Part shown: positions 3,150 to 40,622 of the stretch, piece after piece | Layout of the letters: every line of letters starts with the position of its first letter | Position numbering within the stretch: position 1 is the first letter of the stretch | Source of the DNA: Streptomonospora litoralis | GTDB taxonomy: Bacteria > Actinomycetota > Actinomycetes > Streptosporangiales > Streptosporangiaceae | Reading direction: 5' to 3' | DNA: 64,000 nucleotides | NCBI RefSeq assembly: GCF_004323735.1 | Contig: NZ_CP036455.1 | Span: 1,917,101-1,981,100, forward strand | Position numbers and translations under genes: made by a program | Notes under the pieces: generated by a model | The model's database searches: none | What the model saw: the letters and a program-made list of their open reading frames with translations, nothing else | Told to the model about the DNA's origin: nothing

Positions 3150-4180
3150 GGCGGCTCGGGTTTGCTGTGCGGCCTTGTTGGCCTGCCGGGGTGCGGGTGG
3201 TCTGACGGGGAACGGCGGGCACCGAGGGCGGCGCCGGGTCCGGCCGGCGGCCGACGCATCCGGTGCCCGCCGGTGGCGGCGGCCGGCGGGGGCGGCGTTC
3301 GGTCGCCGCGGGCCGATCGGTGCATCGAACGCGTGGTTTTTTCCAAATTCCGGCCGCTGTCTGGTTAAAACCCTGCGTTGGGCGGCACCGGTCCCGCTTG
3401 ACCCGTCTATCGCGAACTTATGGTCGCAGGAAAGCGTATTCCGCGGCCATAAGTTCGCGATCATCGCCGGATGGACCGGCATGCGCCGGATCGGGGCCCG
3501 GGGGCGACGACACGTCGCTCGTGGCGCCCGGGCGCCGCCGACGGGCACTCCACCGCCCGATGGGGTGGACTTTTGGGGGTCTATGCCCGTTTTGCGGGCG
3601 GCCTCGGCGGACGCAGCGGCCACGAGGCGCACGAAAAGTCGACGCCGGGGGCGCTTTTCGCGCCATTCGGCGCACCTCGTGCGCCACCTCCGCCGCGACG
3701 CGGAGGCGGACCCATCGGGAACTCGGGCATTGGTGGACAAAGCACCCTATGCTTTTTCGTATCGCGGAACGACGGTGCGAGGACGGCACCGCGGGGCGGC
3801 GCCGAGGCGGATGCCGCGGCACCTACGTGCATCTCGTGGCCCTCGGTGCGTCTCCATGGCCGCCGGCTGCCCCACATCAGGCCCGCGCCGACAACCGGGC
3901 GGCGGCCCCGGGGCTCGACCACCCGCGGCCGGGGCCGGTGACCACCGCCCCGACCACCCGGGCCCGGACCGTCGTCGCCGCCCTCGTTGGGTGGGTCAGC
4001 GGCGAGCACCCGAACCGATGGGCGCAGGCGCCACCCCGCGGTGCCCTTGCCGCCTCGTCGGGTGGGCCACCGGCGGGCACCCGACCCGGTGACCGCAGGC
4101 CCGGCCATCCGCCACCGTTGCCGCCGCTTTTCCGTCAAGACCACCTGCCACCCGGCAGACCGCAAGGCCGCCCCGCCCGA
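3150..4180. repeat. Dispersed repeat copy A, about 1.0 kb with long inverted arms
   Basis: This fills the gap between the Rieske gene and crtU. The left arm (about 3163-3290) and right arm (about 4045-4175) are imperfect inverted repeats of about 125 bases, both built around GGCCTTG, GGTGGTCT and GGTGCCCGCCGGTGGC. Inside are a perfect-stem hairpin (3409-3461) and a block (about 3490-3850) that reappears nearly unchanged, in reverse orientation, at 39.9-40.2 kb. Reading frames run through it but no start, RBS or recognisable product supports a gene. AT-rich patches (for example 3338-3370) differ from the surrounding genes. Nature unknown: decayed mobile element or structured non-coding element. 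Confidence 0.8.
3409..3461. repeat. Conserved palindrome (hairpin) of repeat copy A
   Basis: Arms 3409-3427 and 3443-3461 pair over 19 bases with one G/T-type exception (ATCGCGAACTTATGG on the outside). The loop contains a further GGAA/TTCC pair. The same hairpin occurs at 26510-26562 and 40299-40350. Confidence 0.88.
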
Positions 4181-4232
4181 GCCCCCCGCCCGAGCCGCCT
4201 CCCCCCCGGCCACCGCGCGACACGCCGCACGG

Positions 4233-5744
4233 TCAACGGGGAGGAGCCCCGCGAGCCCAGCGGGCCAGGGCCCGGGCGGCGGAGCCGCGTCCCTGCCGCG
4301 GCACGCTCCACACCGTGTGGCCGGGCAGGCCCCAGTGTGTGAGCAGAGCATTGGCCGCTAGTACGCCGCTGGTGGCCGCGCGTTCCATGAGGGCCACCGG
4401 GAGGTCGACGCGCACGTGGTCGCCCGCCACCACGACGTCCGGGTCGGGGGTGCGGACGCCGGCGCGCGCGGCGTGGCCGCCGGGAGGGAACAGCGGGCAG
4501 TCGGCGTGCAGCTCGCGGCGTTCGTCGACCACGCCCGCCTCCGCCGTCTCCGGGTAGACCCGGTGCAGCTGGGCGAGCAGGCGCTCGTGCTCCCTCCGCG
4601 CCTCGCAGCCCTCGGGCAGGGCGTAGGCGTGCAGCTCCACCACCGAGCCGCCGGTGCGGCGGGCCCAGCCGGCCGCCTCGTCCTCGAAGCGCTCCAGCAC
4701 GCTGACGTTGTCCAGCGTCGGATAACCGGCGGTACCCAGAAAGCCCGGCCGCGACGCATCCACCGGCCGGTCCAGCCACAGCCGCGAGACCAGGAACGGC
4801 GGCGCCGACGGCAGGCGCCCCAACCCGGCGAGCCACGCGGCGTCGGCCGGGGCCTCCCAGCGCTCGGTGAGCCCGCGCAGTCCCGGGACGTCCGCGGCCA
4901 GTACGACCGCGTCGAACTCCGCGGCCGGGGCGCCGGCGCACGCCACCGCGAACCGGCGCGTGTGCCCGCTGGCCACCGCCTCCACCGGCGCCGAAGTGTG
5001 CACGCGGGCGCCCAGCGACTCCAGCCGCGCGGCCAGCGGGTGCCACAGCGCCTGCGGGAACGGCGAGCGGGGTACGTCGAAGACCAGTCCCTCGCTCGAC
5101 CCCAGAAAGTAGATGTGGAACATGACCGCGAGTTCGGCCGCCGAGAGCCGGCGCGGGTCGGCGAAGAAGCTCCGGGAGAACACCTCGAACGCCAGATGGC
5201 GCGCGCTCGCCGGGAAGCGGATCGCCTCCAGCAGCTCGGGCGCCTCCAGGTGGTCCAGGCGGGCGTAGACGCCGGGGACGTCCACGTCCAGCAGCTGCAG
5301 GGCTGCGGCGATGTTGACACCGGCCAGCTCGCGGGCGGGGAAGCTGCGGCTGCGCGCCGCCAGCGCGAGCGCGTTCCACGGCGGCGTGCGCGGCAGCCCG
5401 GCGAAGCCGTCGCGGGCGCCGCCGGCGTGCACCAGCGGGTAGTCCGCGAGCGGGGTGAGGGCCTCCAGCTCCGGATCCGCGCGGGAGAGCAGCGCCCGCA
5501 GGTTGTAGTACTGCCGGAAGAACGCGTGGAAACCGCGTGTCATGGTGGCCGCCGAGCCGTCGCGCAGCCGGATCGGCCAGCCGCGCAGCCGCCCGCCCAG
5601 CCCTGCTTCGCGCTCCAGCACGGTGGCGGCCACGCCCCGCTCCGCTAGAGCGGTGGCGGCCGCCAGGCCCGCGATGCCGCCGCCGATCACCGCCACCCGC
5701 GGCGCGGGGTCGGGCAGCGCGCCGGCGGGCGCCTGCGGAGGCAC
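4233..5744 (-). CDS. crtU: Beta-carotene desaturase/methyltransferase CrtU (aromatic ring forming)
   Basis: This FAD protein of about 503 residues has an N-terminal dinucleotide motif GGGIAGLAAA (residues 21-30) followed by a glutamate-arginine stretch (VLEREAGLGGRLRG), as in CrtI-like desaturases. The middle contains FFRQYYNLRALL, and the end has the typical DPDVVVAGDHV substrate/FAD-closing motif. Family role: converts beta-ionone rings to aromatic phi rings by desaturation and methyl shift, giving isorenieratene. Downstream of crtT on the same strand. The start is uncertain: GTG at 5744, or TTG at 5780, which would overlap the crtT stop. Much longer open frame upstream is antisense to crtT and crtY and is not coding. 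Distinguished from CrtI by its neighbours and motif spacing, not by activity. Confidence 0.88.
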   Translation of the reverse strand: MPPQAPAGALPDPAPRVAVIGGGIAGLAAATALAERGVAATVLEREAGLGGRLRGWPIRLRDGSAATMTRGFHAFFRQYYNLRALLSRADPELEALTPLADYPLVHAGGARDGFAGLPRTPPWNALALAARSRSFPARELAGVNIAAALQLLDVDVPGVYARLDHLEAPELLEAIRFPASARHLAFEVFSRSFFADPRRLSAAELAVMFHIYFLGSSEGLVFDVPRSPFPQALWHPLAARLESLGARVHTSAPVEAVASGHTRRFAVACAGAPAAEFDAVVLAADVPGLRGLTERWEAPADAAWLAGLGRLPSAPPFLVSRLWLDRPVDASRPGFLGTAGYPTLDNVSVLERFEDEAAGWARRTGGSVVELHAYALPEGCEARREHERLLAQLHRVYPETAEAGVVDERRELHADCPLFPPGGHAARAGVRTPDPDVVVAGDHVRVDLPVALMERAATSGVLAANALLTHWGLPGHTVWSVPRQGRGSAARALARWARGAPPR

Positions 5745-5776
5745 GGCCGCAGCGCGCCGGTCGCGCCCGGGCGCCC

Positions 5777-6517
5777 TCAACCGCCGTCCCGCTCGGTGGA
5801 CCGCGCCTCGCGGGCCCGGCGGGCGGTGAAGGTGTGCACGATGCCGCGCTGCCACCCCGGCAGCGGCTGCGTGGCGACTTCCACCAACCCCGCCGCGCGC
5901 ATGCGCTCCCGCAGCGCCGCGGCGCCGTCGAACTGCAGCACGCTGCGCCACAGATAGCGGTACAGTCGGGTGCGGCGCGTCCAGATCAGCGCCAGCGGGA
6001 TGACCACGCCCCAGCACACCAGCGTCCACACCGTGCGAGCCGCGGCCGAGTCGGCCACCGAGTACTCGTGCAGCGCGATCGGCGCCCCCGGTCGCGCGAG
6101 CGCGCCCAGTGCCGCCAGTGCGGCGTCGGTGTCGGGGCAGTTGCGCAGCAGGTAACCCGCGAAGACGGCGTCGGCCCGTCCGCCCACGTCGTCGGCGGAG
6201 ACGTCCTCGGCGCGGGCGTGCACGAAGCGCACCTTCTCGTGCCAGGTCTTGCGCCGCGCCACCGCGAGCATCCCCGACGAGGCGTCGACGCCGACGATCT
6301 CGGCCCGGGGCAGCACCCGGGCGAGGGCCCGAGTGGAGGCGCCGGTGCCGCAGCCGAGATCGACCACCCGCAGCCCCGCGCCGCCGTCGGCGAGACCGGC
6401 GGCCAGCCGCCGCGCCGAGATCTCCAGGTGGCTGTGGTAGCCGGGATTGGCACCCACCATGCGGTCGTAGTCGGCAGCGGCCCGGTCGAACTCCTCGGTC
6501 ACCGGCCCGGATTTCAT
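5777..6517 (-). CDS. crtT: SAM-dependent methyltransferase CrtT
   Basis: The 246-residue class I methyltransferase has motif I VVDLGCGTGAST at residues 51-62 and an acidic residue (VGVDAS) after strand 2. A hydrophobic stretch around residues 160-175 (LVCWGVVIPLALIW) suggests membrane contact, fitting a lipophilic substrate. It sits just upstream of crtU, as crtT does in Streptomyces crtYTU clusters. Its substrate there is not settled, so a ring or end-group methylation is inferred only. ATG 6517 is chosen because it begins right before the conserved part; ATG 6538 is an alternative. The 79-base gap to crtY is a divergent promoter region. Confidence 0.85.
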   Translation of the reverse strand: MKSGPVTEEFDRAAADYDRMVGANPGYHSHLEISARRLAAGLADGGAGLRVVDLGCGTGASTRALARVLPRAEIVGVDASSGMLAVARRKTWHEKVRFVHARAEDVSADDVGGRADAVFAGYLLRNCPDTDAALAALGALARPGAPIALHEYSVADSAAARTVWTLVCWGVVIPLALIWTRRTRLYRYLWRSVLQFDGAAALRERMRAAGLVEVATQPLPGWQRGIVHTFTARRAREARSTERDGG

Positions 6518-6596
6518 GGCCCTGAGCGAACCGTCCATGGCTCCCCTGTCGTGGCTGCGTGGAACCGCGCTCCCCGCGCATGCCATGCTGTCGCCC

Positions 6597-7787
6597 ATGC
6601 GCCGATTCGACATCGCCGTGGTCGGAGGGGGCGCGGCTGGGCTGTCTCTTACCCACCGGCTGGCCGCCGCGAACCGATCCGGCGGTCCCCGGCTGTCGGT
6701 CGCGCTGGTCGACGCGCCGCCCGGCCCGCTGCGCCCGCCAGAGCGTACCTGGTGCTACTGGGAACGGGGTGCCGGCCGGTGGGACGCGCTGCTCGCCGCC
6801 TCGTGGGACCGGCTGCGCGTGCTCGGCGCCGACGGGGCCGAGCACGGCTCCTCCGCTGCCCCGTTCCGGTACAAGATGCTGCGCTCGGCCGACTTCGAGG
6901 AGCACGTGCGCGCGGCGACCGCGGACGGCGTCGTCGGCTACGGGGCGCGTGTCGAGGAGATCGCCGACGGCGACGACCGGGCCGCCGTGCGGGGCGTGGA
7001 CGCCGGCGGCGAGGCGGTGGAGATCGGCGCCCGCTGGGTGTTCGACTCCCGACCGCGCCCGCTGCCGCCGGCACGGACCGCCCTGCTTCAGCACTTCCGC
7101 GGCTGGTTCCTGCGCACACCCCGCGACGCCTTCGACCCGGCCGGCGCGGTGCTGATGGACCTGCGCACCCCGCAGCCGCCCGGCGGGGTCTCCTTCGGCT
7201 ACATCCTGCCGCTGTCGGCGCGCACCGCCCTGGTCGAGTACACCGAGTTCACCCGCGAGGCCCTCGACGAGGCCGCCTACGAGGCCGCGTTGCACGACTA
7301 CACCGGTCGGCTGCTGGGCCTGGCCGACTTCGAGGTGACCGCCGCCGAGCAGGGGGCGATTCCCATGACCGACGCGCGCATCAGCACGCGCGCGGGGCGC
7401 CGGGTGTTCCGGATCGGAGCCGCGGGCGGCGCCACCCGCCCCTCCACCGGCTACACCTTCGCCGGAATCCAGCGCCAGACGGCCGCGGTCGCCGCCGCCC
7501 TGGCGCGGGGCCGCACTCCCGTCCCACCGGTTCCGCACCGGCGTCGGCACCTGGCCATGGACGCCGTGCTGCTGCGGGCGCTGGACTCCGGCCGAGTGGA
7601 CGGGTCCGCGTTCTTCACTCGGCTGTTCGCCCGCAACGCGCTGCCCGACGTGCTGGAATTCCTCGACGGGCCGTCGAGCCTGCGCCGCGAACTCGCCCTC
7701 GGCGCGACGACGCCGGTGCTGCCGATGTCGGCGACGGCCGCCGAGTGCGCCGTGGGTGCGCTACTGGCGGCTCCCGCGGGGCGTTAG
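6597..7787 (+). CDS. crtY: Lycopene beta-cyclase CrtY
   Basis: The 396-residue flavoprotein begins almost at once with the dinucleotide motif DIAVVGGGAAGLSL (residues 5-18). It also carries the cyclase features FDSRP and YILPLS, and a GGATRPSTGYTF motif near residues 278-290 that is characteristic of CrtY/CrtL cyclases. Role: non-redox cyclisation of both lycopene ends to beta rings, using FADH2. Transcribed divergently from crtT-crtU; together with them it would give isorenieratene. An in-frame ATG 12 bases upstream (6585) is an alternative start. Confidence 0.93.
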   Translation: MRRFDIAVVGGGAAGLSLTHRLAAANRSGGPRLSVALVDAPPGPLRPPERTWCYWERGAGRWDALLAASWDRLRVLGADGAEHGSSAAPFRYKMLRSADFEEHVRAATADGVVGYGARVEEIADGDDRAAVRGVDAGGEAVEIGARWVFDSRPRPLPPARTALLQHFRGWFLRTPRDAFDPAGAVLMDLRTPQPPGGVSFGYILPLSARTALVEYTEFTREALDEAAYEAALHDYTGRLLGLADFEVTAAEQGAIPMTDARISTRAGRRVFRIGAAGGATRPSTGYTFAGIQRQTAAVAAALARGRTPVPPVPHRRRHLAMDAVLLRALDSGRVDGSAFFTRLFARNALPDVLEFLDGPSSLRRELALGATTPVLPMSATAAECAVGALLAAPAGR

Positions 7788-8196
7788 CCAACGGTTTTTC
7801 TCCGACGCGCCGCGGCGATGGCCGGCTGGTGGTCGGCAACGTGGATTATGCGCGCAGGTCAGAAAGCCGCCGGGTTCTGCGGGTAGTCGAATATCGTCGA
7901 ACGGTGATTGCAAGGATTGACACCGCCAGGTGCGATGCGTAACATTTTGTACACATGGAAAGCGCTTTCCGGATTTTCCGGGAGTGGTTGAACGGGTGTC
8001 GGCGGAGTGGAAAGGAAGTTCGGTTCGGGGTGCTCCCGGTGTGCCCCCCGCGCCTCCTTTCGCATTCGCCGCGTTTCGCCGCCCGCGGATTTCCGTGTGT
8101 CCGCGGGCGGCCGCGTACGCTGCCGCGATGCCCCTTGGCGGGCCGACTAGGAGGCCCACCGTCGCGGCGGTGGAGATTCGAGGAGGTAATTCCCCC
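7788..8196. other. 409-base intergenic region, promoter area of the pectate lyase
   Basis: No gene is supported here. It holds a LacI-type palindrome (7957-7970), an AT-richer stretch around 7940-7956 and the AGGAGGT ribosome site at 8181-8187. The long leader after the operator (about 225 bases) has no recognisable riboswitch. Confidence 0.6.
7957..7970. promoter_or_regulatory. LacI-family-type operator, 14-bp perfect palindrome
   Basis: GGAAAGCGCTTTCC is a perfect palindrome with the central CG pair and half-sites typical of LacI/GalR-family operators. Its only downstream gene is the pectate lyase. Binding by a sugar-responsive repressor is inferred; no such regulator gene is in the window. 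Confidence 0.6.
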
Positions 8197-10515
8197 ATGT
8201 CACATCCCCCTGCCCGCCGAGCATTGCTCCGGCGGTTCGCCCGCGCATCGGCCGCGGGCTGCGCACTGGTTCTAGGAGCGGGCGTGCTCAGCGTGTCCAC
8301 TCCCGCCGCAGCGGCCGAAGGCTGCGAAGTCGACTACACCGTCAACGAGTGGAACAGCGGTTTCACCGCCGGCGTCGAGATCACGAACCTCGGCGACGCC
8401 ATCGACGGCTGGACCCTGGAATGGGATTTCCCCGGGAGCCAGGAGATCACCGGGGCCTGGAACGCCGAGACCAGCCAGTCCGGCTCCACGGCCACCGCCG
8501 AGAACGTCTCCTACAACGCCGGAATCCCCACCGACGGGACGGCGTCGTTCGGCTTCCAGGCCACCCACTCCGGCGACAACCCCGCGCCGGAGAGCTTCAC
8601 CCTCAACGGCACCGTCTGCGACGGCAGTACCGACGGCGGTGGCGGCGACGACGGTGACGGCGGCGACGACGGCAACGGTGGCGGCGACGACGGCAACGGC
8701 GACGACGGCGACCAGCAGCCCCAGCCGTCCGGCTCGCCGGAGGGCTGGGCGTCGCAGAACGGCGGCACCACCGGAGGCGCCGGCGGCGAGACGGTGACCG
8801 TCAGCAGCGCCGACGCCCTCACCGAGGCCCTGCAGAGCAGCGGACCGACCGTCGTGCGCCTGGACGGCAGCGTCGACCTCGACGGAATGAACGACATCGT
8901 CTCGGACAAGACGCTGATCGGCGTCGGCTCCGACGCCGAGATCACCGGCGGCGGGCTCGACATCGACGAGGCCCACAACGTCATCGTGCGCAACATCGCT
9001 TTCTCCGACTGGGGCGACGACGCCATCAACGTCCAGGAGGGCTCCACCAACGTCTGGATCGACCACAACAGCTTCACCGGTGGCTCCGACGGCGCCGTGG
9101 ACATCAAGCGCGAGTCCGACTACATCACCGTCTCGTGGAACCACGTCTACGACCACGGCAAGTCCATGCTGCTGGGCCACTCCGACGGCCACACCGAGGA
9201 CGAGGGCCACCTGCGGGTGAGCTACCACCACAACTTCTTCGACGGCTCCGGTAGCCGCCACCCGCGCGTGCGCTTCGGCGAGACCGTGCACGTCTACAAC
9301 AACTACTACCGTGACAACGCCGAGTACGGCGTGGCCTCGACCATGGGCGCCGGTGTACTGGTCGAGGGCAACTACTTCGAGAACGTCGACAACCCCACCC
9401 ACGTGGGATACGCCGACTCCGACGACGGCCGCCTGGTCGTCCGCGACAACGTCTTCGACAACTCCGGTGACCCCGAGACGGCCGGCAGCGTGGCCGAGGT
9501 GCCCTACTCCTACGACCTCGACTCCGCCCAGGACGTGCCCGGCATCGTCACCTCCGGAGCCGGCCCCGGCAACGTCGACGACACCGGCGGCGGCGACACC
9601 GGCGGCGACGACGGCGGCAACGGTGACGGTGACGGGAACGACGACGGCGGATCCGACCCGCAGCCCTCCGCCGAGCTGGAAGGCTGGGCGACCCGGAACG
9701 GCGGCACCACCGGCGGCGCCGGGGGCGAAACCGTGACCGTCAGCAGCTCCGGCGCCCTGCTCGACGCGCTGCAGAGCAGCGGACCCACCGTCGTCCGCCT
9801 GGACGGCAGCGTCGACCTCTCCGGAATGAACGACGTGGCCTCCGACAAGACGCTGATCGGCGTCGGCTCCGACGCCACGGTCACCGGCGGAGGGTTCGAC
9901 CTGAACGGTGTCAGCAACGTCGTCATCCGCAACATCAACTTCGACGACTGGGACGACGACGCGATCAACGTCCAGGAGAGCACGACCAACGTCTGGATCG
10001 ACCACAACAGCTTCGGCACGGGCTCGGACGGCGCCGTGGACATCAAGCGCGAGTCCGACTTCATCACCGTCTCCTGGAACTACGCTCAGGACCACGACCA
10101 CGTGATGCTGCTGGGCCACTCCGACGACCACACCGAGGACGAGGGCCACCTGCGGGTGAGCTACCACCACAACCACTTCGACGGCACCTACAGCCGCCAC
10201 CCGCGGGTGCGCTTCGGCGAGCCGGTGCACGTCTACAACAACTACTACGACGGCGTCGACACCGGTGTGGCCTCCACACAGGGCGCGGGCGTGCTGGTCG
10301 AAGGCAACTACTTCCAGGACGTCGCCCACCCGACGCTGGAGGGCTACGGCTCCTCCAGCGACGGCCGGGTCGAGCTGAACGGCAACGTCTTCGACAACTC
10401 CGGCGAGCCCGAGAGCTCCGGCGGCGTCGCCGAGGTGCCCTACTCCTACGACCTCGACTCCGCCCAGGACGTGCCCGGCATCGTCAGCGGCGGAGCCGGA
10501 ACCGGAAACATCTGA
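8197..10515 (+). CDS. Secreted pectate lyase: CBM2 plus two tandem PL1 domains
   Basis: The 772-residue protein is exported. It has a twin-arginine-poor but basic N-terminus, a hydrophobic core and a cleavage site after PAAAA (residue 40). A CBM2 cellulose-binding module spans about 43-141, with Cys43 and Cys141 as its disulfide. Then come a Gly/Asp linker, PL1 domain 1 (about 182-460), a second Gly/Asp linker, and PL1 domain 2 (about 491-772). Both PL1 copies carry WIDHNSF, DGAVDIKRESD and RHPRVRFGE, the calcium and catalytic-arginine region of the family. The copies are nearly identical even at DNA level. Role: calcium-dependent beta-elimination of pectate while anchored to cellulose. The start is fixed by AGGAGGT 10 bases before the ATG at 8197. 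Confidence 0.94.
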   Translation: MSHPPARRALLRRFARASAAGCALVLGAGVLSVSTPAAAAEGCEVDYTVNEWNSGFTAGVEITNLGDAIDGWTLEWDFPGSQEITGAWNAETSQSGSTATAENVSYNAGIPTDGTASFGFQATHSGDNPAPESFTLNGTVCDGSTDGGGGDDGDGGDDGNGGGDDGNGDDGDQQPQPSGSPEGWASQNGGTTGGAGGETVTVSSADALTEALQSSGPTVVRLDGSVDLDGMNDIVSDKTLIGVGSDAEITGGGLDIDEAHNVIVRNIAFSDWGDDAINVQEGSTNVWIDHNSFTGGSDGAVDIKRESDYITVSWNHVYDHGKSMLLGHSDGHTEDEGHLRVSYHHNFFDGSGSRHPRVRFGETVHVYNNYYRDNAEYGVASTMGAGVLVEGNYFENVDNPTHVGYADSDDGRLVVRDNVFDNSGDPETAGSVAEVPYSYDLDSAQDVPGIVTSGAGPGNVDDTGGGDTGGDDGGNGDGDGNDDGGSDPQPSAELEGWATRNGGTTGGAGGETVTVSSSGALLDALQSSGPTVVRLDGSVDLSGMNDVASDKTLIGVGSDATVTGGGFDLNGVSNVVIRNINFDDWDDDAINVQESTTNVWIDHNSFGTGSDGAVDIKRESDFITVSWNYAQDHDHVMLLGHSDDHTEDEGHLRVSYHHNHFDGTYSRHPRVRFGEPVHVYNNYYDGVDTGVASTQGAGVLVEGNYFQDVAHPTLEGYGSSSDGRVELNGNVFDNSGEPESSGGVAEVPYSYDLDSAQDVPGIVSGGAGTGNI

Positions 10516-10562
10516 CCCTTTCACCCGGGTCCGCTCCGCGCCCCCAGGGAGCGGCCCCTCCG

Positions 10563-10590: not shown

Positions 10591-10676
10591 TTTCCAGCGC
10601 CCTGCGCAGGGCCCTCGACGGTGCGGACACCCGCCGACCAGGATTGACGCGAAACCCTCCGGGGTAAGCGCCGGGT

Positions 10677-13893: not shown

Positions 13894-13994
13894 TGTCCAC
13901 CGGAGCCATCGTGATGATGGTCATCTCCATCGTGATCGTGTGGGGCGGACTGGTGGCGGCGATCTTCAATCTGCGCCGCAACCCCGAGGAGTAA
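13893..13994 (+). CDS. metS: MetS-type small subunit of the NSS importer (33 residues)
   Basis: The ATG overlaps the transporter stop (TGATG), so it is translationally coupled to it. The product is one transmembrane helix (about residues 4-26: MSTGAIVMMVISIVIVWGGL at the start) and a short basic tail ending RRNPEE. This matches the methionine/alanine importer small-subunit family in size and tail. In Corynebacterium MetS is required for MetP activity. The preceding AAGGGGG is a good ribosome site. Confidence 0.85.
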   Translation: MSTGAIVMMVISIVIVWGGLVAAIFNLRRNPEE

Positions 13995-14041
13995 AGGCAC
14001 GAAGGGGGAGGCGGGGGCCGACCGCACCGTCCCCGCGCAAT

Positions 14042-19846: not shown

Positions 19847-19997
19847 GCGGCGACTCTAGACCCCGCCGCGCCAACCGAGCGGCGCGGGGTTGCGATAGCT
19901 CCCGCCACCTGCCGTCGCGGCGCCGCGAGCGGGTCCTCACGGCGCCCGCGCGGGCGGCGCCGGCGGCGGGCGAGCCCGGTGGAGGCGCCGACCCCGC

Positions 19998-20795
19998 TCA
20001 GCGGCCGGCAGCAGCCAGTGCCGCCCGCGAGCGCCAGTGCCGCTGGTAGGCGTCCACCAACCACGTGTCCGCCCACGCGCTCTGCGGTGCCTCCGCGAGA
20101 TGGGCGGCGGTCAGCAGCGCGGTCAGCCGGTCCTCCAGGTCGGCGGCCGCCTCCAGGGCCTCCTGGCGGGTGTGCTCGCCCCGGCGCAGCTCGCGCAGCC
20201 ACGTCGCCCACGGCTCGGGCATCGGCAGCGTCAGCCGCCCCGTCTCCAGCAGCTCGACGCCCTGCACACCCAGCCGGACCATGTGGTAAGCGAACTTCGT
20301 GTCGAAGCCGTGCAGCTCCACGAGTTCGGGCCGGTTGGTGTGGCGTCCGCCGCGCCTGCCGAGCAGGCTGTCGCGCTGGGCGCACAGGTAGCCCAGGAAG
20401 CGGTGGCCCACCCGGCGGGAGAGTATGCGCCCGGCCGCGCCACGCAGTTCGCGGCCCAGGTCGGTGATCTCGGTGATCTCCCGCTCGGGCACGAACAGCG
20501 GCAGCAGCACCGTCGGATTGCCGTCGAGCGCCAGCCGCATCCATTTGCGCAGCGAGTAGACCGTCAGGTCGAGATCGCCGGGACCCGAGCGCACCCCTTC
20601 GGGCCGCGTCCGGTAGATGTACTGCTCGAAGGAGCCCAGGCCGATCACGTACTCCGGCGGCTCCACGCAGATGCCCATCTCGTCGCGGTCGTCCTGGTCG
20701 GCCACGGTGATGCCGTGCACGCCCGACCCGACCTGGCACCGCAGGATGGTGCCCTGCTCGGCGATGCGTGCGAATTCGGCGCTGGAGTGCTTCAT
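19998..20795 (-). CDS. Predicted nucleotidyltransferase (COG3541-like)
   Basis: The 265-residue protein has an N-terminal GSGVHGITVADQDDRDEMG region (residues 23-41). This resembles the G-S and Asp-x-Asp nucleotide/metal motifs of DNA-polymerase-beta-like nucleotidyltransferases. Next comes a conserved VYSLRKWMRLALDGNPTVL-type stretch. The rest is helical. This matches a widespread family of predicted nucleotidyltransferases whose substrate is not known. The ATG at 20795 lacks a strong ribosome site; an upstream in-frame ATG (20915) would add a low-complexity leader and is less likely. Confidence 0.75.
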   Translation of the reverse strand: MKHSSAEFARIAEQGTILRCQVGSGVHGITVADQDDRDEMGICVEPPEYVIGLGSFEQYIYRTRPEGVRSGPGDLDLTVYSLRKWMRLALDGNPTVLLPLFVPEREITEITDLGRELRGAAGRILSRRVGHRFLGYLCAQRDSLLGRRGGRHTNRPELVELHGFDTKFAYHMVRLGVQGVELLETGRLTLPMPEPWATWLRELRRGEHTRQEALEAAADLEDRLTALLTAAHLAEAPQSAWADTWLVDAYQRHWRSRAALAAAGR

Positions 20796-26300: not shown

Positions 26301-26640
26301 GCGCTAGGCATTAAGAACGCCGGTCTGCTGTGCGGCCTTGTTGGTCTGCCGGGTGGCGGGTGGTCTAAAGCGGCGCCGAGGACGGCGGACGGTCGGGCCC
26401 GCGCCCATCGGGCCGGGTGCTCGCCGGCGCCGGCGAGCCCGCCTCCGCGCTGCGGCGGCGGTGGCCCACCGGCGCCGATAGGTCCCCTATGCCGGTCCAT
26501 CCGGCGATGATCGCGAACTTATGGCCGCGGAATGCGCTTACCTGCGACCATAAGTTCGCGATAGACGGGCCAAGCCGCGCCGAGTCCGGCGGCCCATGGG
26601 AGCCGGACCGATCCAGCACTTCTTAAGCACGGCTTAGCGC
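26301..26640. repeat. Dispersed repeat copy B, 340 bases with terminal inverted repeats
   Basis: The left end (GCGCTAGGCATTAAGAA) and right end (TTCTTAAGCACGGCTTAGCGC) are imperfect inverted repeats. Between them lie a left arm like that of copy C (26320-26430) and the conserved hairpin 26510-26562 in the same orientation as in copy C. The long internal block of copies A and C is missing, so B looks like an internally deleted form. The last bases overlap the hemerythrin stop codon. The rest of the 26234-26633 gap holds nothing else. Confidence 0.8.
26510..26562. repeat. Conserved palindrome (hairpin) of repeat copy B
   Basis: The outer 15 bases of each arm (ATCGCGAACTTATGG, 26510-26524 with 26548-26562) pair perfectly. 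It reads as the reverse complement of the hairpin in copy A. Confidence 0.88.
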
Positions 26641-33889: not shown

Positions 33890-33913
33890 TAGGTTGTAAT
33901 CCTAACTAGGTTG
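33890..33913. promoter_or_regulatory. Repeated TAGGTTG motif before the PadR gene
   Basis: TAGGTTG occurs at 33890-33896 and 33907-33913, with CCTA between them, in an unusually AT-rich 35 bases ahead of the gene. A PadR autoregulatory site is inferred. Confidence 0.4.
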
Positions 33914-33964
33914 CTCTATCGTCTAGGTAGCGAACAAGAACGGAAGCCCCACAGCGGAGGAACG

Positions 33965-34297
33965 ATGGACCGCCGTTCGAGCTGGCTCAAAGGCGTCCTG
34001 GACCTGCTGGTGCTCGCCACCCTGGTCCGCGGCGAGAGCTACGGCTACGAGATCGCCAAGACGCTCGCCGACTCCGGCTTCGGCCGGATCCGCGGCGGCA
34101 CCCTCTATCCGGTGCTCAACCGGCTGGAGGAGTCCGGCTTGGTGGTCGCCGAGTTCCGGGCCGCCGAGAAGGGCCCCGGCCGCCGCTACTACCGGATCAC
34201 CGGCGCCGGACGCACCACATTGAAGGAGCAGGCCGACCTGTGGCTGGAGTTCGACTCCTCGGTGCGCTCCGTCCTCAATCAGGGAGGCATGGCATGA
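33965..34297 (+). CDS. PadR-family transcriptional regulator
   Basis: The 110-residue protein shows the PadR winged helix: LLVLATLVRGESYGYEIAKTL (about 14-34), GTLYPVLNRLEESGLVVAEF (about 46-65) and GRRYYRITGAGR. CGGAGG lies before ATG 33965. The stop overlaps the ATG of the following membrane protein, the usual PadR/HAAS partnership. Confidence 0.92.
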   Translation: MDRRSSWLKGVLDLLVLATLVRGESYGYEIAKTLADSGFGRIRGGTLYPVLNRLEESGLVVAEFRAAEKGPGRRYYRITGAGRTTLKEQADLWLEFDSSVRSVLNQGGMA

Positions 34298-35070
34298 CCG
34301 ACTACTTCGACGAGCTCGCCGAGCGGCTGCGCGAGCACGGGGCGCGCCCGGACGAGGTCCGCGCCACCCTCGACGACCTGGCCTCCTTCGCCGCCGAAAG
34401 CGGCGCCGACCCGCATTCGGAATTCGGCCCCGTGGGCGAGTTCGCCCGGCAGCTGACCGCCGGCGGCGGTGCGGAGCAGGCGCCGCCCGCCCCGCGCGGG
34501 CAGGACACCTGGCGATGGAGCGCCGACGTCTTCTCCGCACCGCGCAAGCTCGCCGAGTTCGGCGCCCAGGGCTGGGAGATGGAGGAGGTCGACCGGTTCG
34601 GCGCGTTCCTGAGCCGGCGCGACCCCGACAGTCCGCAGCAGTGGGAGTACCGCCAGGAGATCGCCGACTCCTACCGCAGCCGTGCGGCGCTCGCCCGGCG
34701 GCTCGCTCCCCAGGGCTGGGAGGAGTGCGGCCACTGGTCGGTGTTCGTCTATCTGAAGCGCCCCAAGGCGGCCAGCGAGGGCCCGGCGGCGCGGGTGAGC
34801 GACCCGCCGGCCGTGCCCCGGCGCCGGTTCTTCCTGGGCTGGGCCGGAACGGCGGCGGTGCTGGCCGCCCTGATCGCGGCTGGGTTCGCCCTCGTGCGCG
34901 GCACCACCCTCGCCGGCGAGGCCCTGGGCGGGGAGTCGGCCGGAGGCGCCGACGCCGCCGCGGAGCTGGCCGGAATGGCGGTGGGAGCCGTCGTCGGCGC
35001 GGGCGCCGTGCTGCTCGCCGTGTGGGCGGTGTCGGCCCTTGTCGCCCGCCTGCGCGCGCGGCGGGGCTGA
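34294..35070 (+). CDS. HAAS/DUF1700-like membrane protein coupled to PadR
   Basis: The 258-residue protein has an N-terminal helical segment (YFDELAERLREHGARPDEV, residues 4-22) of the HAAS type that contacts PadR regulators. The middle region holds two similar units of the type A-x-GWEMEEV...F-L-RRD and GWEECGHWSVFVYLKR (about 85-105 and 150-165), resembling DUF2812. Two transmembrane helices follow (about 175-197 and 225-248). It overlaps the padR gene by 4 bases. Likely a membrane sensor or effector for that regulator; the signal is unknown. Confidence 0.75.
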   Translation: MTDYFDELAERLREHGARPDEVRATLDDLASFAAESGADPHSEFGPVGEFARQLTAGGGAEQAPPAPRGQDTWRWSADVFSAPRKLAEFGAQGWEMEEVDRFGAFLSRRDPDSPQQWEYRQEIADSYRSRAALARRLAPQGWEECGHWSVFVYLKRPKAASEGPAARVSDPPAVPRRRFFLGWAGTAAVLAALIAAGFALVRGTTLAGEALGGESAGGADAAAELAGMAVGAVVGAGAVLLAVWAVSALVARLRARRG

Positions 35071-35083
35071 CTGTCCGCGGCGG

Positions 35084-35755
35084 CTACCCCGGTTTGAGGG
35101 CGCTCAACCGCTCCACGGCGCCGGCCTTGGAACGCTCGCTGACCTCGATGCGGAAACCCTGGTCGCGCACCTGCTCCAAGGGGCGGCGCAGGAAGCGCTC
35201 CCCGCTGCCGGGCTGGGTGCGCTCGGTCAGCCGTTCCAGGCCGCGCAGCGCCCAGCGCAGCGGCCCGAAGGTGGGGCGCACGTGGTCCAGCAGCAGCAGG
35301 CGGCCGCCCGGGCGCAGGACCCGGCGCATCTCGGCGACCGCGCCGGCCACGTCAGGCACCGAGCACAGCGAAAGGGTCGCCACCACGGTGTCGAAGTGGG
35401 CGTCGGCAAAGGGCAGGTGCTCGGCGTCGGCTTCGCGCAGCTCGGCCACGTGCTCCAGGCCGCGGGCGCGCCGCCGGGCGATGTCCAGCATCCGCGGGCT
35501 GAGGTCGACGCCGGTCAGCTCCACGTCGTCGCCGTAGAGCTCCAGGTTGCGCCCGGTGCCCACCGCCACCTCCAACGTCCGGCCGCGGGCCTGGCCGCAC
35601 ACCCAGGAACGGCCGTCGCCGATGACGGCGCGCTCCACGCGGTCCATCGACCGGTCGTAGCGCGCGGCCTGCCCGTCCCAGTGGGAGCGCATCGCGTCGA
35701 GCGTCGCGGCGGAGTCGTCGGGCTGTGCGGAGTGTTGGGAATGGGGTTGGGACAT
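35084..35755 (-). CDS. Class I SAM-dependent methyltransferase
   Basis: The 223-residue protein has motif I LEVAVGTGRNLELY (about 60-73), an acidic end of strand 2 (TGVDLSPRML), LPFADAHFDTVVATLSLCSV, then LRPGGRLLLLDHVRP. It resembles the UbiE/phosphatidylethanolamine-methyltransferase-like group, so a small molecule or lipid acceptor is likely; the substrate is not known. Start ATG 35755 lies before the conserved N-terminal SHWDGQAARYDRSMDRVE. Confidence 0.85.
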   Translation of the reverse strand: MSQPHSQHSAQPDDSAATLDAMRSHWDGQAARYDRSMDRVERAVIGDGRSWVCGQARGRTLEVAVGTGRNLELYGDDVELTGVDLSPRMLDIARRRARGLEHVAELREADAEHLPFADAHFDTVVATLSLCSVPDVAGAVAEMRRVLRPGGRLLLLDHVRPTFGPLRWALRGLERLTERTQPGSGERFLRRPLEQVRDQGFRIEVSERSKAGAVERLSALKPG

Positions 35756-36095
35756 GGCCGGCTCCGTTCCGCTGGCTGACTGGCGAGGAGCAGCCGACCG
35801 CTGCCGCCCCCGTTGAACCGCTCCTGCAGGAAACGCGCGCGGCGCCGCCCGGGTTCCGCCGAGGCGGCCGGGCGGCCGCGGGTGCCGCCCCGCGCCGCCG
35901 CGGGGCGGCACCCGCGGTCCGCCCACCTGCGGCGCGGCGCCGTAGCAGGAACGTTAGTGCCCGTGGCCGCATCCGGCCCGCGCCCGCCTCGGCGGGTCGC
36001 CCGACCCGATCCCGACCGGCGACAACGGGCCGGGTGACGGCAGACCGCGGCGGCCGGCGTTCGGGCCGGCCCCGCGGGAGCCGCGCGACGGAAGG
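35756..36095. other. 340-base intergenic stretch with a long hairpin
   Basis: No gene is supported. It contains the terminator hairpin 35876-35917 and very GC-rich flanks. It lies between the methyltransferase start and the end of the CMD-type gene. Confidence 0.45.
35876..35917. terminator. Long hairpin, probable terminator of the ECF41 operon
   Basis: A 16-bp perfect stem (35876-35891 with 35902-35917), 10-base loop. It sits 178 bases past the stop of the CMD-type gene on the minus strand. No T run. Confidence 0.6.
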
Positions 36096-36554
36096 TCAGG
36101 CCGGGACGGCGGAGCCGGGAACCATCCGGGTGGCCACCGCGATGCGGTTCCAGGCGTTGATGGTCGTGATCGCGATGATCAGGGCCGCCAGGGTGGGCTC
36201 GTCGTAGTGGCGGGCCGCCTCGTCCCACACCTCGTCACCGACCCGCTCGGCGCGGTCGGCGAAGCGCGTCATGTCCTCGGTCAGCGCCAGCGCCGCCCGC
36301 TCGGCCCCGGTGAACAGCGGCGACTCCTGCCACACCGCCGTCGCGAACAGGCGCTCGTCGCTCTCGCCGGCCTGCTTCGCGTGCTTGCCGTGCATGTCCA
36401 CGCAGAAGGCGCAGCCGTTGATCTGGCTGGCCCGCAGCTTCACGAGCAGCAGAGTGGACTCGGGCAGCGGGCTCTGAGCCAGAAACCCCTCCAGTCCCCG
36501 CATGGCCTGGTAGGCGGCCGGGGCCTGCTCGACAAGGTTCATCCGTGCGTTCAA
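36096..36554 (-). CDS. AhpD-like carboxymuconolactone-decarboxylase-family protein
   Basis: The 152-residue protein has the CMD/AhpD signature KLRASQINGCAFCVDMHGKHA (in two halves), with Cys-x2-Cys and a downstream His. This is the peroxidatic/relay site of AhpD-like proteins. Role: disulfide or peroxide reduction, or COE-type activity. GAGGAG lies 7 bases before TTG 36554, which is preferred over the in-frame ATG 12 bases later. It follows the ECF41 sigma gene on the same strand by 83 bases; ECF41 factors are typically linked to such COE genes. Confidence 0.85.
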   Translation of the reverse strand: MNARMNLVEQAPAAYQAMRGLEGFLAQSPLPESTLLLVKLRASQINGCAFCVDMHGKHAKQAGESDERLFATAVWQESPLFTGAERAALALTEDMTRFADRAERVGDEVWDEAARHYDEPTLAALIIAITTINAWNRIAVATRMVPGSAVPA

Positions 36555-36637
36555 CTTCGTGCTCCTCGCTGTTGTCGTGTTCCGGTGGGTGGATCCGCCC
36601 GTGCCCGCCTTCAGAGCGTGCGCCCGCCGTGTCGCCG

Positions 36638-37510
36638 TCACGCCGGTCCCGTCCGCTTCAGCTTCTCCGGGTTGAGGACGATGTCGATTTCACTGATGCG
36701 CCCGCCCGATACCGCGATCGCGGCGACGCTCTCGGTCCGCCCGTCACGTATCCCGAGCAGACCCGGCCGGCCGTTCACGGCCGCGTGGCGCAGCTCGTGC
36801 AGCCCGGCCGAGCGGGCCTGGATGCCCAGCAGGAAGCGCGCCACCTTGCGGGCCCCCAGGATGGGGTGGAGCGCACTGCGCACCGCCCCGCCCCCGTCGG
36901 AGCGCAGCACGGCATCGGGGTCGAGCAGCGAAACCAGCCCGTCCATGTCGCCGCCGCGGATCGCCGACAGGAACGCCTCGACGATCCTGCGGTGCTCGTC
37001 GGGGCCGACGTCGAAACGCGGCGCTCGGGCGGTGACGTGCTTTCGCGCCCGCGCGGCGAGCTGTCGGCAGGCCGCCGGACTGCGCCCCACCACGCGCCCC
37101 ACCTCGTCGAACGGCAGGCCGAACACGTCGTGCAGGACGAAGGCCGTGCGCTCGGCGGGGGAGAGGGTCTCCAGCACGACCAGCATCGCCATGCTCATCG
37201 ACTCGTCGAGCGTGACGCGGTCGGCCGGGTCGGCCTCGTCCACCAGCGGCTCGGGCAGCCACTCGCCGACGTACTCCTCACGCCGGCGGCGTGCCGAACG
37301 CAGGGAGTCCAGCGCGAGCCGAGAGACCGTGGTCACCAGCCAGGCGGTGATATCGGTGATCTCGCCGGTCGGGGTGCGGTGCAGCCGAAGCCATGCCTCC
37401 TGCACCGCGTCCTCCGACTCCTCGACGCTGCCCAGCAGCGAATAGGCGACCGAGATAAGGCGCGGACGCAGAGCCCGGTACCGGGCGAGGGCTTCGGTTT
37501 CGCTGTTCAC
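36638..37510 (-). CDS. ECF41-type (SigJ-like) RNA polymerase sigma factor
   Basis: The 290-residue protein is longer than classical ECF factors. It has region 2 (YSLLGSVEESEDAVQEAWLRL), then EWLPEPLV between the regions. Region 4 reads LSPAERTAFVLHDVFGLPFDEV, with the recognition helix at SPAACRQLAARAR. A C-terminal SnoaL-like domain contains LRSDGGGAVR. WLPEP and DGGG are hallmarks of the ECF41 group, where the fused domain replaces an anti-sigma factor. GTG 37510 is chosen because a perfect ECF41 promoter ends 8 bases ahead of it, leaving an almost leaderless start. Confidence 0.92.
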   Translation of the reverse strand: MNSETEALARYRALRPRLISVAYSLLGSVEESEDAVQEAWLRLHRTPTGEITDITAWLVTTVSRLALDSLRSARRRREEYVGEWLPEPLVDEADPADRVTLDESMSMAMLVVLETLSPAERTAFVLHDVFGLPFDEVGRVVGRSPAACRQLAARARKHVTARAPRFDVGPDEHRRIVEAFLSAIRGGDMDGLVSLLDPDAVLRSDGGGAVRSALHPILGARKVARFLLGIQARSAGLHELRHAAVNGRPGLLGIRDGRTESVAAIAVSGGRISEIDIVLNPEKLKRTGPA

Positions 37511-37518
37511 GTGATGAG

Positions 37519-37545
37519 GACGGGGCAGCGCGCGATTGTGTGACA
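37519..37545 (-). promoter_or_regulatory. ECF41-type promoter, TGTCACA-N16-CGTC
   Basis: On the minus strand the -35 element TGTCACA occupies 37545-37539 and the -10 element CGTC 37522-37519, exactly 16 bases apart. This matches the consensus published for ECF41 autoregulated promoters. Transcription would begin within a few bases of the GTG start codon. Confidence 0.85.
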
Positions 37546-37629
37546 CGGCCGGGCGCCGCCCCGGTGGGGGCGACGGGTGCGCGGAAAAATTCTGAGGTTC
37601 ATTGACGGGTGATCACCGAGACGGGAAGC

Positions 37630-37641
37630 TGGTATAGACCG
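37630..37641. promoter_or_regulatory. GntR/DasR-like operator TGGTATAGACCG
   Basis: Ten of twelve bases agree with the DasR site core TGGTCTAGACCA. It lies about 136 bases before the UPF0309 SIS gene. Inference only. Confidence 0.45.
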
Positions 37642-37776
37642 GACCGTACCGCGTCCGTTGCGGACGGTCCCACCACCGGGATACCGCAGAGTGCAGCCCC
37701 CGCACCGCCGTTCCGCGGATCCGGTCTCCACACCGCCCGCGGCGGGCGCTGCGGAACCACCGCTCGAAAGGACACC

Positions 37777-38508
37777 ATGACGGACGAAGCAGACTTCGGG
37801 GCACTGATGCGCGAACGCCTCGCGCTGGTCCAGGAGCGCAACGCGGCGGCGCTGTCCGAGGTCGCCGACGTGCTGATGGAGCGGGGCGTGCGCGGCGGCG
37901 GCGTCGTCCTCGCCGCCGGGGCCGGGCACTCCTTCAACGCCGTGAGCGAGGCCTTCCACCGGGCGGGCGGACTGGCCACCGTCAAACCGCTCCACGCACC
38001 CGAAGTCCTCCCCTACAACGGCGCCTCCTCCAGCACCGCGGCCGAGCGCCGGCCGGGGCTGGCGGCCGAGGTGCTGACCCGCGCCGCCCCCGACGCAGGC
38101 GACGTGCTGTTCGTCTTCTCGAACTCGGGCATCAATCCCTACCCGGTGGAGATGGCGCGGGAGGCCGCCGACCGCCGGATCCCCGTCGTCGCCGTGACGT
38201 CGCGGGCGTGCAACGCGGCCGCGCCCCCGCGGGCGGGCAGCACCCTCGGCGACGAGGCCGACCACGTACTCGACACCCTCGTCGAGCCCGGCGACGTCTC
38301 CTATCCGCCCGAAAACCCCGTCACGGGCCCCATGTCGAGCCTGGCCAACGCCTATCTGTGGAACCTGCTGCTCGCCGAGCTGCACTCCCGCGCCGCGGCG
38401 GCGGGCCTCGACCTCCCGCTGTGGCGCTCCTCCAACGTGCCGGGAGGCGACGAGGCCAACGCGGGGCTGCTGGAGCACTACCGGCCCCGCATCCCCGAAC
38501 TGGCCTGA
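37777..38508 (+). CDS. UPF0309-type SIS-domain protein
   Basis: The 243-residue protein has a single sugar-isomerase domain: AAGAGHSFNAVSEAFHRAGG (about 48-67), GDVLFVFSNSGINPYPVEMA (about 109-128) and VTGPMSSLANAYLWNLL. This pattern matches the UPF0309 family of SIS proteins, which bind phosphosugars (amino-sugar type is likely) with no known reaction. A DasR-like operator upstream would fit control by amino-sugar supply. AAAGGA precedes the ATG. Followed by a terminator, so monocistronic. Confidence 0.85.
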   Translation: MTDEADFGALMRERLALVQERNAAALSEVADVLMERGVRGGGVVLAAGAGHSFNAVSEAFHRAGGLATVKPLHAPEVLPYNGASSSTAAERRPGLAAEVLTRAAPDAGDVLFVFSNSGINPYPVEMAREAADRRIPVVAVTSRACNAAAPPRAGSTLGDEADHVLDTLVEPGDVSYPPENPVTGPMSSLANAYLWNLLLAELHSRAAAAGLDLPLWRSSNVPGGDEANAGLLEHYRPRIPELA

Positions 38509-38530
38509 CGGGCGGCGCCGAGGACCGGGC

Positions 38531-38555
38531 CGGGGCGGCCGCACGGGCCGCCCCG
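38531..38555 (+). terminator. Terminator hairpin of the SIS gene
   Basis: A 10-bp perfect stem (38531-38540 with 38546-38555), 5-base loop, 23 bases after the stop. Confidence 0.75.
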
Positions 38556-38657
38556 AGCGCCGCATGCTGCTAAAAAGGGTCCGGTGGCGGTGAGCGACCC
38601 TCTCCGATACGCGCCGCTGCCGCGCCGGCAGCCCTCCACCTCCCCAGGGGTTTCGCG

Positions 38658-39497
38658 ATGAACAGTCCAGGCGAAGACGACGCCTCCGAACAGCCCACGG
38701 CCGAGGAGATCCCCGACGTCGACACCACCGTTCCGCACACCGGACGGGTGTGGAACTACTGGCTCGGCGGCCGGGACAACTTCGCGGCCGACCGCGAACT
38801 CGGCGACCGCATCCGCGAGTTCCTGCCCACGGTCGTCGAGCTGGCCCGCGCCGACCGCGCGTTCCTCGGACGCGCCGTCACCTTCCTGGCCCGTGACGCC
38901 GGCATCCGCCAGTTCCTCGACGTGGGCAGCGGGCTGCCCACCGCGGACAACACCCACGAGGTGGCCCAGGCCGCCGCGCCCGACGCGCGCATCGTCTACG
39001 TCGACAACGACCCGCTGATCCACGCCCACGCCCGTGCGCTGCTGTTCGGCACCCCCGAGGGCGCCACCGACTACGTCCACGCCGACCTGCGCGACACCGC
39101 CGCCGTCCTGCGGGCCGCCGAGCGCACGCTGGACCTGAGCCGCCCCGTCGCGCTGAGCATGCTCGGCGTCGTCGAGCACATCACCGACGCCGAGGGCGCC
39201 TACGAACTCGTCGGCGGCCTGGTCGACGCGCTGCCCTCGGGCAGCTACCTGGTGCTCGCCCACGACACCGACGTCGTCCACGGCGCGGTCTCCGCAGAGG
39301 CGGTGCGCCGGTGGAACGAGAGCGCGACACCGGGGATCACGCTGCGCCGCCCCGAAGAGATCGCCCGCCTCTTCGACGGCCTGGAGGTGCTGGAACCCGG
39401 CCTCGTCTCCACCTCGCGCTGGCGCCCCGAGCCCACCGCCGACGGCGCCGCCCCACCCGAGGTCGACGCCTTCTGCGCCGTGGCCCGCAAGCCCTGA
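38658..39497 (+). CDS. DUF574-family SAM-dependent methyltransferase
   Basis: The 279-residue protein carries the actinobacterial family marks PHTGRVWNYWLGGRDNFAADRE (two parts, about 26-47) and FLDVGSGLPTADNTHEVAQ (motif I, about 92-110). VYVDNDPLIHAHARALL and LSMLGVVEHI follow. The family is greatly expanded in filamentous actinomycetes and is tied to developmental or secondary-metabolite regulation, with substrates mostly unknown. A weak GGGG site lies 9 bases before ATG 38658. Confidence 0.9.
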   Translation: MNSPGEDDASEQPTAEEIPDVDTTVPHTGRVWNYWLGGRDNFAADRELGDRIREFLPTVVELARADRAFLGRAVTFLARDAGIRQFLDVGSGLPTADNTHEVAQAAAPDARIVYVDNDPLIHAHARALLFGTPEGATDYVHADLRDTAAVLRAAERTLDLSRPVALSMLGVVEHITDAEGAYELVGGLVDALPSGSYLVLAHDTDVVHGAVSAEAVRRWNESATPGITLRRPEEIARLFDGLEVLEPGLVSTSRWRPEPTADGAAPPEVDAFCAVARKP

Positions 39498-39700
39498 CCA
39501 GGCGGGGCCGGGGCCCTGCAAGCCCGTAGAGCCTGCTCCCGTGGTCGTGTCACGTGCCGACCTCGACCGCGAAGTCACGATCAACACCGTGTCGAGGGGC
39601 CTCGGGGAGTGCGGCATCGACGCCCGGGGACCCTGGCATGCGCCGCCCCCCGCGGCCGCCCCCAGTGCGCCGATGCGGTATCCGCGGACCTGGGCCGTGG

Positions 39701-40622
39701 TTAAGAACGCCGGTCTGCTGTGCGGCCTTGTTGGTCTGGCGGGTGGATAGGTGGTCTTACGGAAAAGCGGCACCGAGGACGGCGGTGGGCCGGGCCTGCG
39801 CCCAACGGGCCGGGTGCTCGCCGGTGGCGCACCCGGCGGGGGCGGCGACGAGGCCCGATGCGGGGTGGTCGGCGGCGGTCATGCAGCGGGGTCGGGGCCA
39901 CGAGATGCACGTAGGTGCCGCGGCATCCGCCTCGGCGCCGTCCCGAGGCGCCATCCCCAAACCGTCATTCTGCTATACGAAACAACGCGGGGCGGTTTGT
40001 CCATCAATGTCCGTGTTCCCGATGGGTCCGCGCCCGCCGAGGCCGCCCGCAAAACGGGCATAGACCCCCAAAAGTCCACCCCATCGGGCGGTGGAGTGCC
40101 CGTCGGCGGCGCCCGGGCGCCACGAGCGACATGTCGTCGCCCCCGGCCCCCGTTCCGGCGCACCACCAGGGGCGTGCGAGCACCCGAGACCGCGCCCCGC
40201 CGCGCGGCCTCCGGCCGGTGCGGGCCGGGTCGGAACACGGCGCTACCACGTCGGCCAACCGGCGCCGGTAGGCCCTATCTGCGGTCCATCCGGCGGTCAT
40301 CGTGGACTTATGGCCACGGGAACGCTTTCCCGAGGCCATAAGTTCACGATCAACGGGAGAAGCCGGCGGGACCGGTGCCGCCCAGTGCAGGGTTTCGATC
40401 AGACAGCGGACGGAATCCGGTGCAAACCGCGCGTTGGATGCGCCGACCGGCCTGCAGCGCCCGAACGCCGCCCCCGCCGGGCGCGCCACCGGCGAGCCCC
40501 CGACCCGTCGACGGCGGTCCGGACCCTGCGCCGTCCTCGGTGCCCTTCGTTCCCCGCCAGGTGACCCGACACCCGGCAGGCCGGCAGGGCCGCCCAGCAG
40601 ACCCGAGCCGCCCCTCCCCACG
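39701..40622. repeat. Dispersed repeat copy C, about 0.9 kb, inverted relative to copy A
   Basis: It begins TTAAGAACGCCGGTCTGCTG, as in copy B, with left arm about 39711-39850 and right arm about 40480-40600 forming imperfect inverted repeats. The block 39890-40160 is the reverse complement of 3490-3850 in copy A. Over roughly 110 bases it differs at only a few positions, but it lacks an insertion of about 90 bases present in A. The hairpin is at 40299-40350. The remaining gap (39498-39700 and 40623-40926) shows only an inverted repeat at 40773-40796. Confidence 0.82.
40299..40350. repeat. Conserved palindrome (hairpin) of repeat copy C
   Basis: The outer arms are ATCGTGGACTTATGG and CCATAAGTTCACGAT. 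Relative to copies A and B, the fifth base has changed on both arms (C to T with G to A), keeping the pair. Confidence 0.85.

Follow-up and report, generated by a model that had tools for sequence, protein, structure and literature searches.

What occupies the large gene-free gaps in a 64,000-nt stretch of the Streptomonospora litoralis genome (NZ_CP036455.1, positions 1,917,101–1,981,100; the whole of this stretch is called the window)? A first-pass annotation had placed there four copies of one intergenic repeat, here named A to D, and had proposed for them either a non-autonomous mobile family or a family of structured RNAs specific to this lineage. The four copies are present close to the positions then given, and profile matches unite them in a single dispersed family. 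The answer that we favour, with a probability of about 85%, is that A to D are copies of non-autonomous, orphaned transposons with IS5-type ends and Foldback-like arms, partly homogenised by recombination. The mobile proposal made earlier is supported: the copies are numerous, their flanks differ, their terminal repeats resemble the ends of IS5-family elements, and orthologous sites in congeners are free of the element.

Layout, ends and empty sites of the family

When copy A was searched against the own genome (5.81 Mb, two contigs), at least 327 matching pieces were obtained (the best 40 of 565 candidates were scored). A 21-nt motif of the core has 59 genomic matches with up to three mismatches and its reversed pattern none; the half-site of the hairpin has 182 matches against 7 for the reversed pattern, which corresponds to about 90 hairpins. 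Four further cores, near positions 1139744, 2435005, 2732327 and 3031133, bring the total to at least 63, so that copies stand in many places elsewhere in the genome, with flanks that differ. The regions of the 59 motif cores and of two of the four further ones were fetched (60 regions with 61 core-bearing elements); they were picked for holding a core, and the counts per element given here do not describe core-less copies. Profiles begun from the window copies, refined on the fetched regions and then run on these 60 regions revealed one layout in all 61 elements: an end block (E), tandem arm units (U) in plus orientation, a spacer, a hairpin block (H) in minus orientation, a spacer, the core (K) in plus orientation, a spacer and tandem units in minus orientation. 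H is recognised in most of the elements and E in a minority. The units recur at a spacing of about 137 nt, an arm holding at most five of them, whole or partial, and the elements thus have the long inverted arms with internal tandem repeats that characterise Foldback transposons. Together they amount to 75,473 bases, approximately 1.3% of the genome. Core-bearing copies measure 0.69–1.94 kb, above the size of miniature inverted-repeat transposable elements (MITEs); small enough to count as such are copy B (332 bp) and a 223-bp element in region L110, in which ends with one unit are able to stand alone.

The outer borders of the better-kept copies, compared side by side, carry a 17-bp terminal inverted repeat, TAAGCCGTGTTTAAGAA. 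It has 35 matches (up to four mismatches) in the 60 regions, and 34 of them lie within 60 nt of an element border; three of these 34 ends belong to two core-less elements. Among the 61 core-bearing elements, nine keep one terminal repeat and 41 have none. The base preceding the repeat is a C at 24 of the 34 ends, and at nine ends the called gene next to the element takes its stop codon from the first three bases of the repeat. The usual target of the IS5 group is CTAG/TA. In the DNA examined CTAG is scarce: it occurs 164 times in 719,759 bases, 26 times as a TAG stop. The elements share with IS5-family MITEs the terminal inverted repeats that match those of a known insertion sequence (IS), the preference for C before TA and the lack of a functional transposase gene inside. 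An IS5-type transposase acting in trans would have recognised the element ends and inserted the elements at the TA of CTAG, in many cases where a TAG stop stood; a stop hit in this way would be preserved, since TAA, TAG or TGA opens the inserted end.

Sites without the element have been found between orthologous genes of congeners (genomes G001 to G005). In S. litoralis (G000) the element of region L117 reads ...CTC|TA-element-TA|GCC..., with TA at both junctions. In G001, G004 and G005 these two genes adjoin without it, and a single TAG stands there as the end of the left gene (in G005 extension served to place the last 28 nt of the site), which is consistent with insertion at the TA of CTAG; G002 and G003, readable on the left flank only, have no element there. 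Another example is the element of L121, which is missing from between its neighbour genes in G001 and G005, and from G002, G003 and G004 as far as their left flank, the only readable one, shows. In the window the comparison covered the sites of B and C. At the site of B both flanks and no element occur in G001, G002 and G004, and the flanking genes are missing in G005. At that of C both neighbour genes are kept in G001, with 1.29 kb between them in which none of the four profiles finds a match; one neighbour is missing in G002, G004 and G005, where the gap shows no element. G003 is not comparable at either site, its contigs being short.

Nearly identical ends occur on IS5-family insertion sequences of other actinomycetes. 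Scanning contigs with TARGCCGTGTTYAAGAASKS returned 30 stretches; ends were printed for 14 of them, and six, from organisms outside the actinomycetes, look like chance matches. In three of the 30, two from Pseudonocardia parietis and one from Nocardia alni, paired exact ends 1,033–1,068 bp apart surround IS5-type transposase sequence. In N. alni this sequence is divided between two frames; the protein of P. parietis matches the NCBIfam family NF033580 (IS5_3) with 248.9 bits (cut-off 110), and also Pfam DUF4096 and DDE_Tnp_1. In the congener G005, six copies have full-length, stop-free transposase matches, and their ends differ from TARGCCGTGTTTAAGAA by one mismatch in 11 of 12 cases and by two in the remaining one. 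Of the 15 ends printed for the paired P. parietis, N. alni and G005 elements other than L225 and L229–L232, 14 are likewise preceded by C; they are additional to the 34 ends above. The 17-bp end was also seen in five stretches of Streptomonospora sp. PA3 other than the G004 elements discussed below. With 24 candidates scored, this IS5-type transposase has no match in the own genome; nor has DUF4096, in a search that was positive in five of 14 control genomes. Thus, an autonomous partner in the same genome, as expected for MITEs, was not found, and the candidates for it are in G005. The enzyme of another element, no longer in this genome, probably drove the spread; the source may have been lost or may never have been resident, which would have left an orphaned family in decay, as the copies lacking any recognisable end illustrate.

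Copies in the window, their modules and their probable homogenisation

Copy A (3156–4173, plus strand) reads U+, H−, K+, U−. Its left arm is one unit of about 120 nt (3156–3280), followed by H on the minus strand (3394–3484, the hairpin itself at 3409–3461), by K on the plus strand (3484–3962), without sign of coding, and by an inverted right arm (3996–4173, minus strand) with half a unit (3996–4056) and most of another (4066–4173). No terminal repeat was recognised at either end of it (region L099) with up to four mismatches. Copy C (39691–40622, minus strand) consists of U+ (39701–39830), a K− with an internal deletion that matches as two pieces (39850–40036 and 40029–40160), H+ (40255–40365, hairpin at 40299–40350, plus strand) and U− (40484–40606). 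A terminal repeat with three mismatches begins at 39691 and none was recognised at the far end. A and C do lie in opposite orientation, as previously described, and have in common a near-identical block of 133 nt (97%) as well as outer stretches that agree at 80% and 84%. What were then taken for arms of about 125 bases, however, are single units of the arrays. Copy B (26305–26636, plus strand, left bound read by eye) is indeed short, with U+ (26311–26438), H+ (26465–26582, hairpin at 26510–26562, plus strand) and E+ (26590–26637) and without K; its right terminal repeat has one mismatch and its left one is degenerate. Copy D (51330–51546, plus strand) is a remnant, as had been thought: an end fragment with U− (51346–51488) and E+ (51499–51547), whose terminal repeat, with one mismatch, lies at 51546 on the minus strand. 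Adjoining it there is an IS630-family element (51545–52687; NCBIfam NF033545, 263.6 bits) with 28-nt inverted ends, the left of which has the terminal TA in common with D. It looks inserted at this TA, because GCGCC stands after it, as beyond the end of B. Elsewhere in the window, at 8564–10512, direct repeats of about 280–300 nt, spaced by 936–939 nt and 70–79% identical, stand among long open frames and are perhaps duplicated coding modules.

No transposase was found inside the elements, in keeping with the first-pass annotation, which recognised none in the four copies. The core was aligned from 55 of 64 core matches, those that cover more than 380 model positions. A protein-coding core was rejected: over the first 372 columns no reading frame is open in all copies, the best being open in 34 of 55, and there is no codon-phase signal (p = 0.88). 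A decayed transposase was discarded too, the best protein match having an E value of 1.4 and the DNA matches being short, with none convincing besides the ends. As for carriage by plasmids or phages, copy C, the only copy tried, had no match in a plasmid or phage collection.

The hairpin block H is present in 38 of 58 aligned copies and absent in 20. The spacings had suggested a simple insertion of H into an H-less element. This was rejected: of 16 H-less copies printed, all but L112 carry in its place another sequence with inverted arms of its own. Pieces around this replacing sequence in L123 and L129 fold no better than shuffles, and the piece of L096 folded likewise covers a unit, not the hairpin. 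Hairpins of similar size exist in the congeners, their stems differing between genomes and several beginning with GATCTTGTA; long ones with stems that hold it are located in contig C43 of G001 (13972–14034 and 19945–20009) and in regions L174 (13033–13097), L135 (3038–3100), L137 (2926–2988) and L138 (4366–4424). H is most likely a captured palindromic repeat.

The arms of units of about 137 nt would have grown and shrunk by unequal recombination after insertion, and some cores would have been homogenised by gene conversion. The 55 cores have a mean pairwise identity of 83.9% (77.6–99.8%), and among 1,485 pairs nine reach at least 96% and none falls between 92 and 96%. Ten blocks of at least 200 nt and 93% identity are common to pairs of elements, and the nine pairs of cores belong to such blocks; none runs end to end in both partners, and in five the block spans one partner (L081 or L092). 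The ten copies in groups of at least 97% identity are nearer to each other than random cores (median 93 kb; none of 20,000 permutations, in which a circular genome is assumed, was as close). Our reading of these near-identical blocks is that copies recombined with each other or underwent gene conversion; a possible alternative is that an element transposed and then lost its ends. The elements of L123 and L124, 21 kb apart, in inverted orientation and with cores 99.4% identical, are a possible substrate for inversion.

Objections and rival explanations

Several observations weigh against an IS5-driven family. Both terminal repeats are kept in just 11 of the 61 core-bearing copies, and the IS5-end route of the other 50 would follow from their kinship with these. 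The junctions of L117 are consistent with a TA duplication without proving it, because TA also opens the repeat and no alignment is obtained for the downstream flanks; in addition, G and not C precedes the TAG of this site in the three congeners. At the left junction of L121, where G001 has TACTAG, S. litoralis has an extra TAA that plain TA duplication does not explain. The IS5_3-like elements fetched from G002, with many related copies, have no such ends with up to three mismatches, and nothing convincing is common to the elements and the IS5-type ones beyond the ends. Finally, three of nine congener elements (seven in G004, two in G003) stand beside genes that also flank own-genome elements, two with neighbours in common on one side and one with both outer neighbours. 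These shared contexts suggest old shared insertions or hotspots, and to that extent relatives do hold elements at the same gene contexts; the sites of B, empty in three congeners, and of C, where four have no element, do not follow this pattern.

The strongest of the rival explanations, and one compatible with the transposon reading, is that the arrangement of arms, hairpin and arms is an older palindromic repeat, widespread in the bacterial family, that captured IS5-type ends later, so that the IS5 machinery would account for the recent spread only. We consider it a serious candidate at somewhat less than even odds. Whole-genome searches score few candidates per genome (four for H, seven for copy A), and absence is to be understood at that sensitivity. 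H was found in one of 200 genomes of the family, the own one, which supports the lineage specificity first proposed, but some match to copy A occurs in 43 of 60 relatives, mostly as short arm stretches; a congener has mirrored arms around an inner part as well, and two other genera have them in a shortened form. In seven elements of the congener G004, mirrored arms made of U-like arrays enclose the elements' own core (82–91% alike among themselves), and the array borders have no 17-bp end. All seven cores have a same-strand match to positions 237–290 of K (E 2e-4 to 0.03, 4.5–11.5 bits), the reversed control giving one match (9.4). G028 and G012, which belong to other genera, have short elements with U-like arms; several of these arms are paired in inverted orientation about other hairpins, and their borders again lack the 17-bp end, which counts for the capture and against the IS5 route alike. 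The relatives may, however, have lost their ends, as 41 of the 61 own copies have. Six of the seven G004 cores (L133–L139) hold about 205 nt that are similar to their own reverse complement, and in L134, L135, L137 and L138 the DNA around this stretch has weak matches to the IS5-type end (3–4 mismatches), which suggests a small nested element.

A fixed functional element near gene 3' ends, be it a structured RNA, a terminator or a DNA-binding array kept by selection, is unlikely. It would explain why H, folded as single-stranded DNA, is far more stable than shuffles (z of −9.5 in A, −7.2 in B and −9.1 in C), and why G-T exceeds A-C in its 19-bp stem on the core-sense strand (71 against 12 cells in 54 distinct copies, totals summed by hand from the stem table, one shared pair accounting for 47 of the 71). 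A further stem pair is C-G in 25, T-G in 15, T-A in 11 and C-A in 2 copies (Fisher p = 0.004). These figures are a weak hint that the core-sense strand of H folds as RNA or single-stranded DNA, and the strong hairpin of H is the part of the earlier RNA proposal that stands. For the core the proposal is not supported: consensus folding of the 55 copies gave covariation terms of 2.3 and 0.9 on the two strands, not favourable on either, and no Rfam match reached its gathering score in the window (the four matches on 3100–4250 are far under theirs, the best with E 0.038). Orthologous genes in congeners do without the element.

The position of the copies relative to genes, called by a codon-usage script, can be read in both ways. 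In raw medians they are nearer to gene 3' ends (56 nt, 71 sides) than to 5' ends (269 nt, 51 sides), as a functional element near gene ends would be; such proximity is equally expected from stop-codon targeting and selection against promoter damage. Thirty-five elements lie between tandem, 18 between convergent and eight between divergent genes (all called neighbour pairs in the regions and the window: 321, 93 and 92), an excess of convergent over divergent that is borderline (p = 0.055), and their orientation relative to tandem genes has no significant bias (23 against 12, p = 0.09). Movement of REP/REPIN-type palindromes (REP, repetitive extragenic palindromic) by a RAYT (REP-associated tyrosine transposase, Y1) would fit the high-copy hairpins and the congener stems that differ at similar size, and is nonetheless very improbable, as the elements are large and the better-kept ones are bounded by IS5-type ends.

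Comparison with known systems

No published description of this family was recognised in the literature searched, judged mostly by title and the start of the abstract. With the IS5-family insertion sequences (NF033580 IS5_3) and their MITEs it has in common the terminal repeat and the C before TA at most ends, whereas it has no transposase gene, an inside not convincingly similar, lengths of up to 1.94 kb and a modular cargo. REPINs (PMC3116915, PMC2817692) are likewise high-copy palindromic intergenic repeats, but the elements here are much larger and bounded by IS5-type ends. Closer is the BrickBuilt MITE of Porphyromonas gingivalis (PMC4596501), which is intergenic, of narrow host range and without transposase remnant, has IS5-family-like ends and internal tandem repeats, and keeps both ends in only four of 19 copies. 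Its units are of 23 nt in one run, whereas those of S. litoralis are of about 137 nt and mirrored on either side of the hairpin block and the conserved core, in core-bearing elements of 0.69–1.94 kb.

If the transposon reading is right, these elements are a natural record of how non-autonomous copies outlive their source, of stop codons as harmless CTAG landing sites and of the homogenisation of dispersed copies. Their form, a transposon architecture known mainly from eukaryotes and here resting in gene-free gaps, is also near that of Galileo, a Foldback-like element of Drosophila. Galileo (PMC3688188) has long inverted arms holding tandem repeats, its conservation between species is limited to the extremities, and its arms have been proposed as multi-site platforms for the transposase or a host factor. 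A bacterial counterpart, in which the mirrored arrays of about 137-nt units would be such platforms and the inner hairpin an exchangeable cassette, is a speculative and rather doubtful extension; the cassette is suggested by the presence of H in some copies, of another inverted-arm sequence in nearly all H-less ones printed and of other stems in congeners. If true, the hairpin of each species would look as if matched to a species-specific partner protein. The two systems differ in that Galileo is eukaryotic and has a P-superfamily transposase, whereas the elements of S. litoralis are bacterial and have IS5-type ends; the resemblance is one of form and probably not of kinship.

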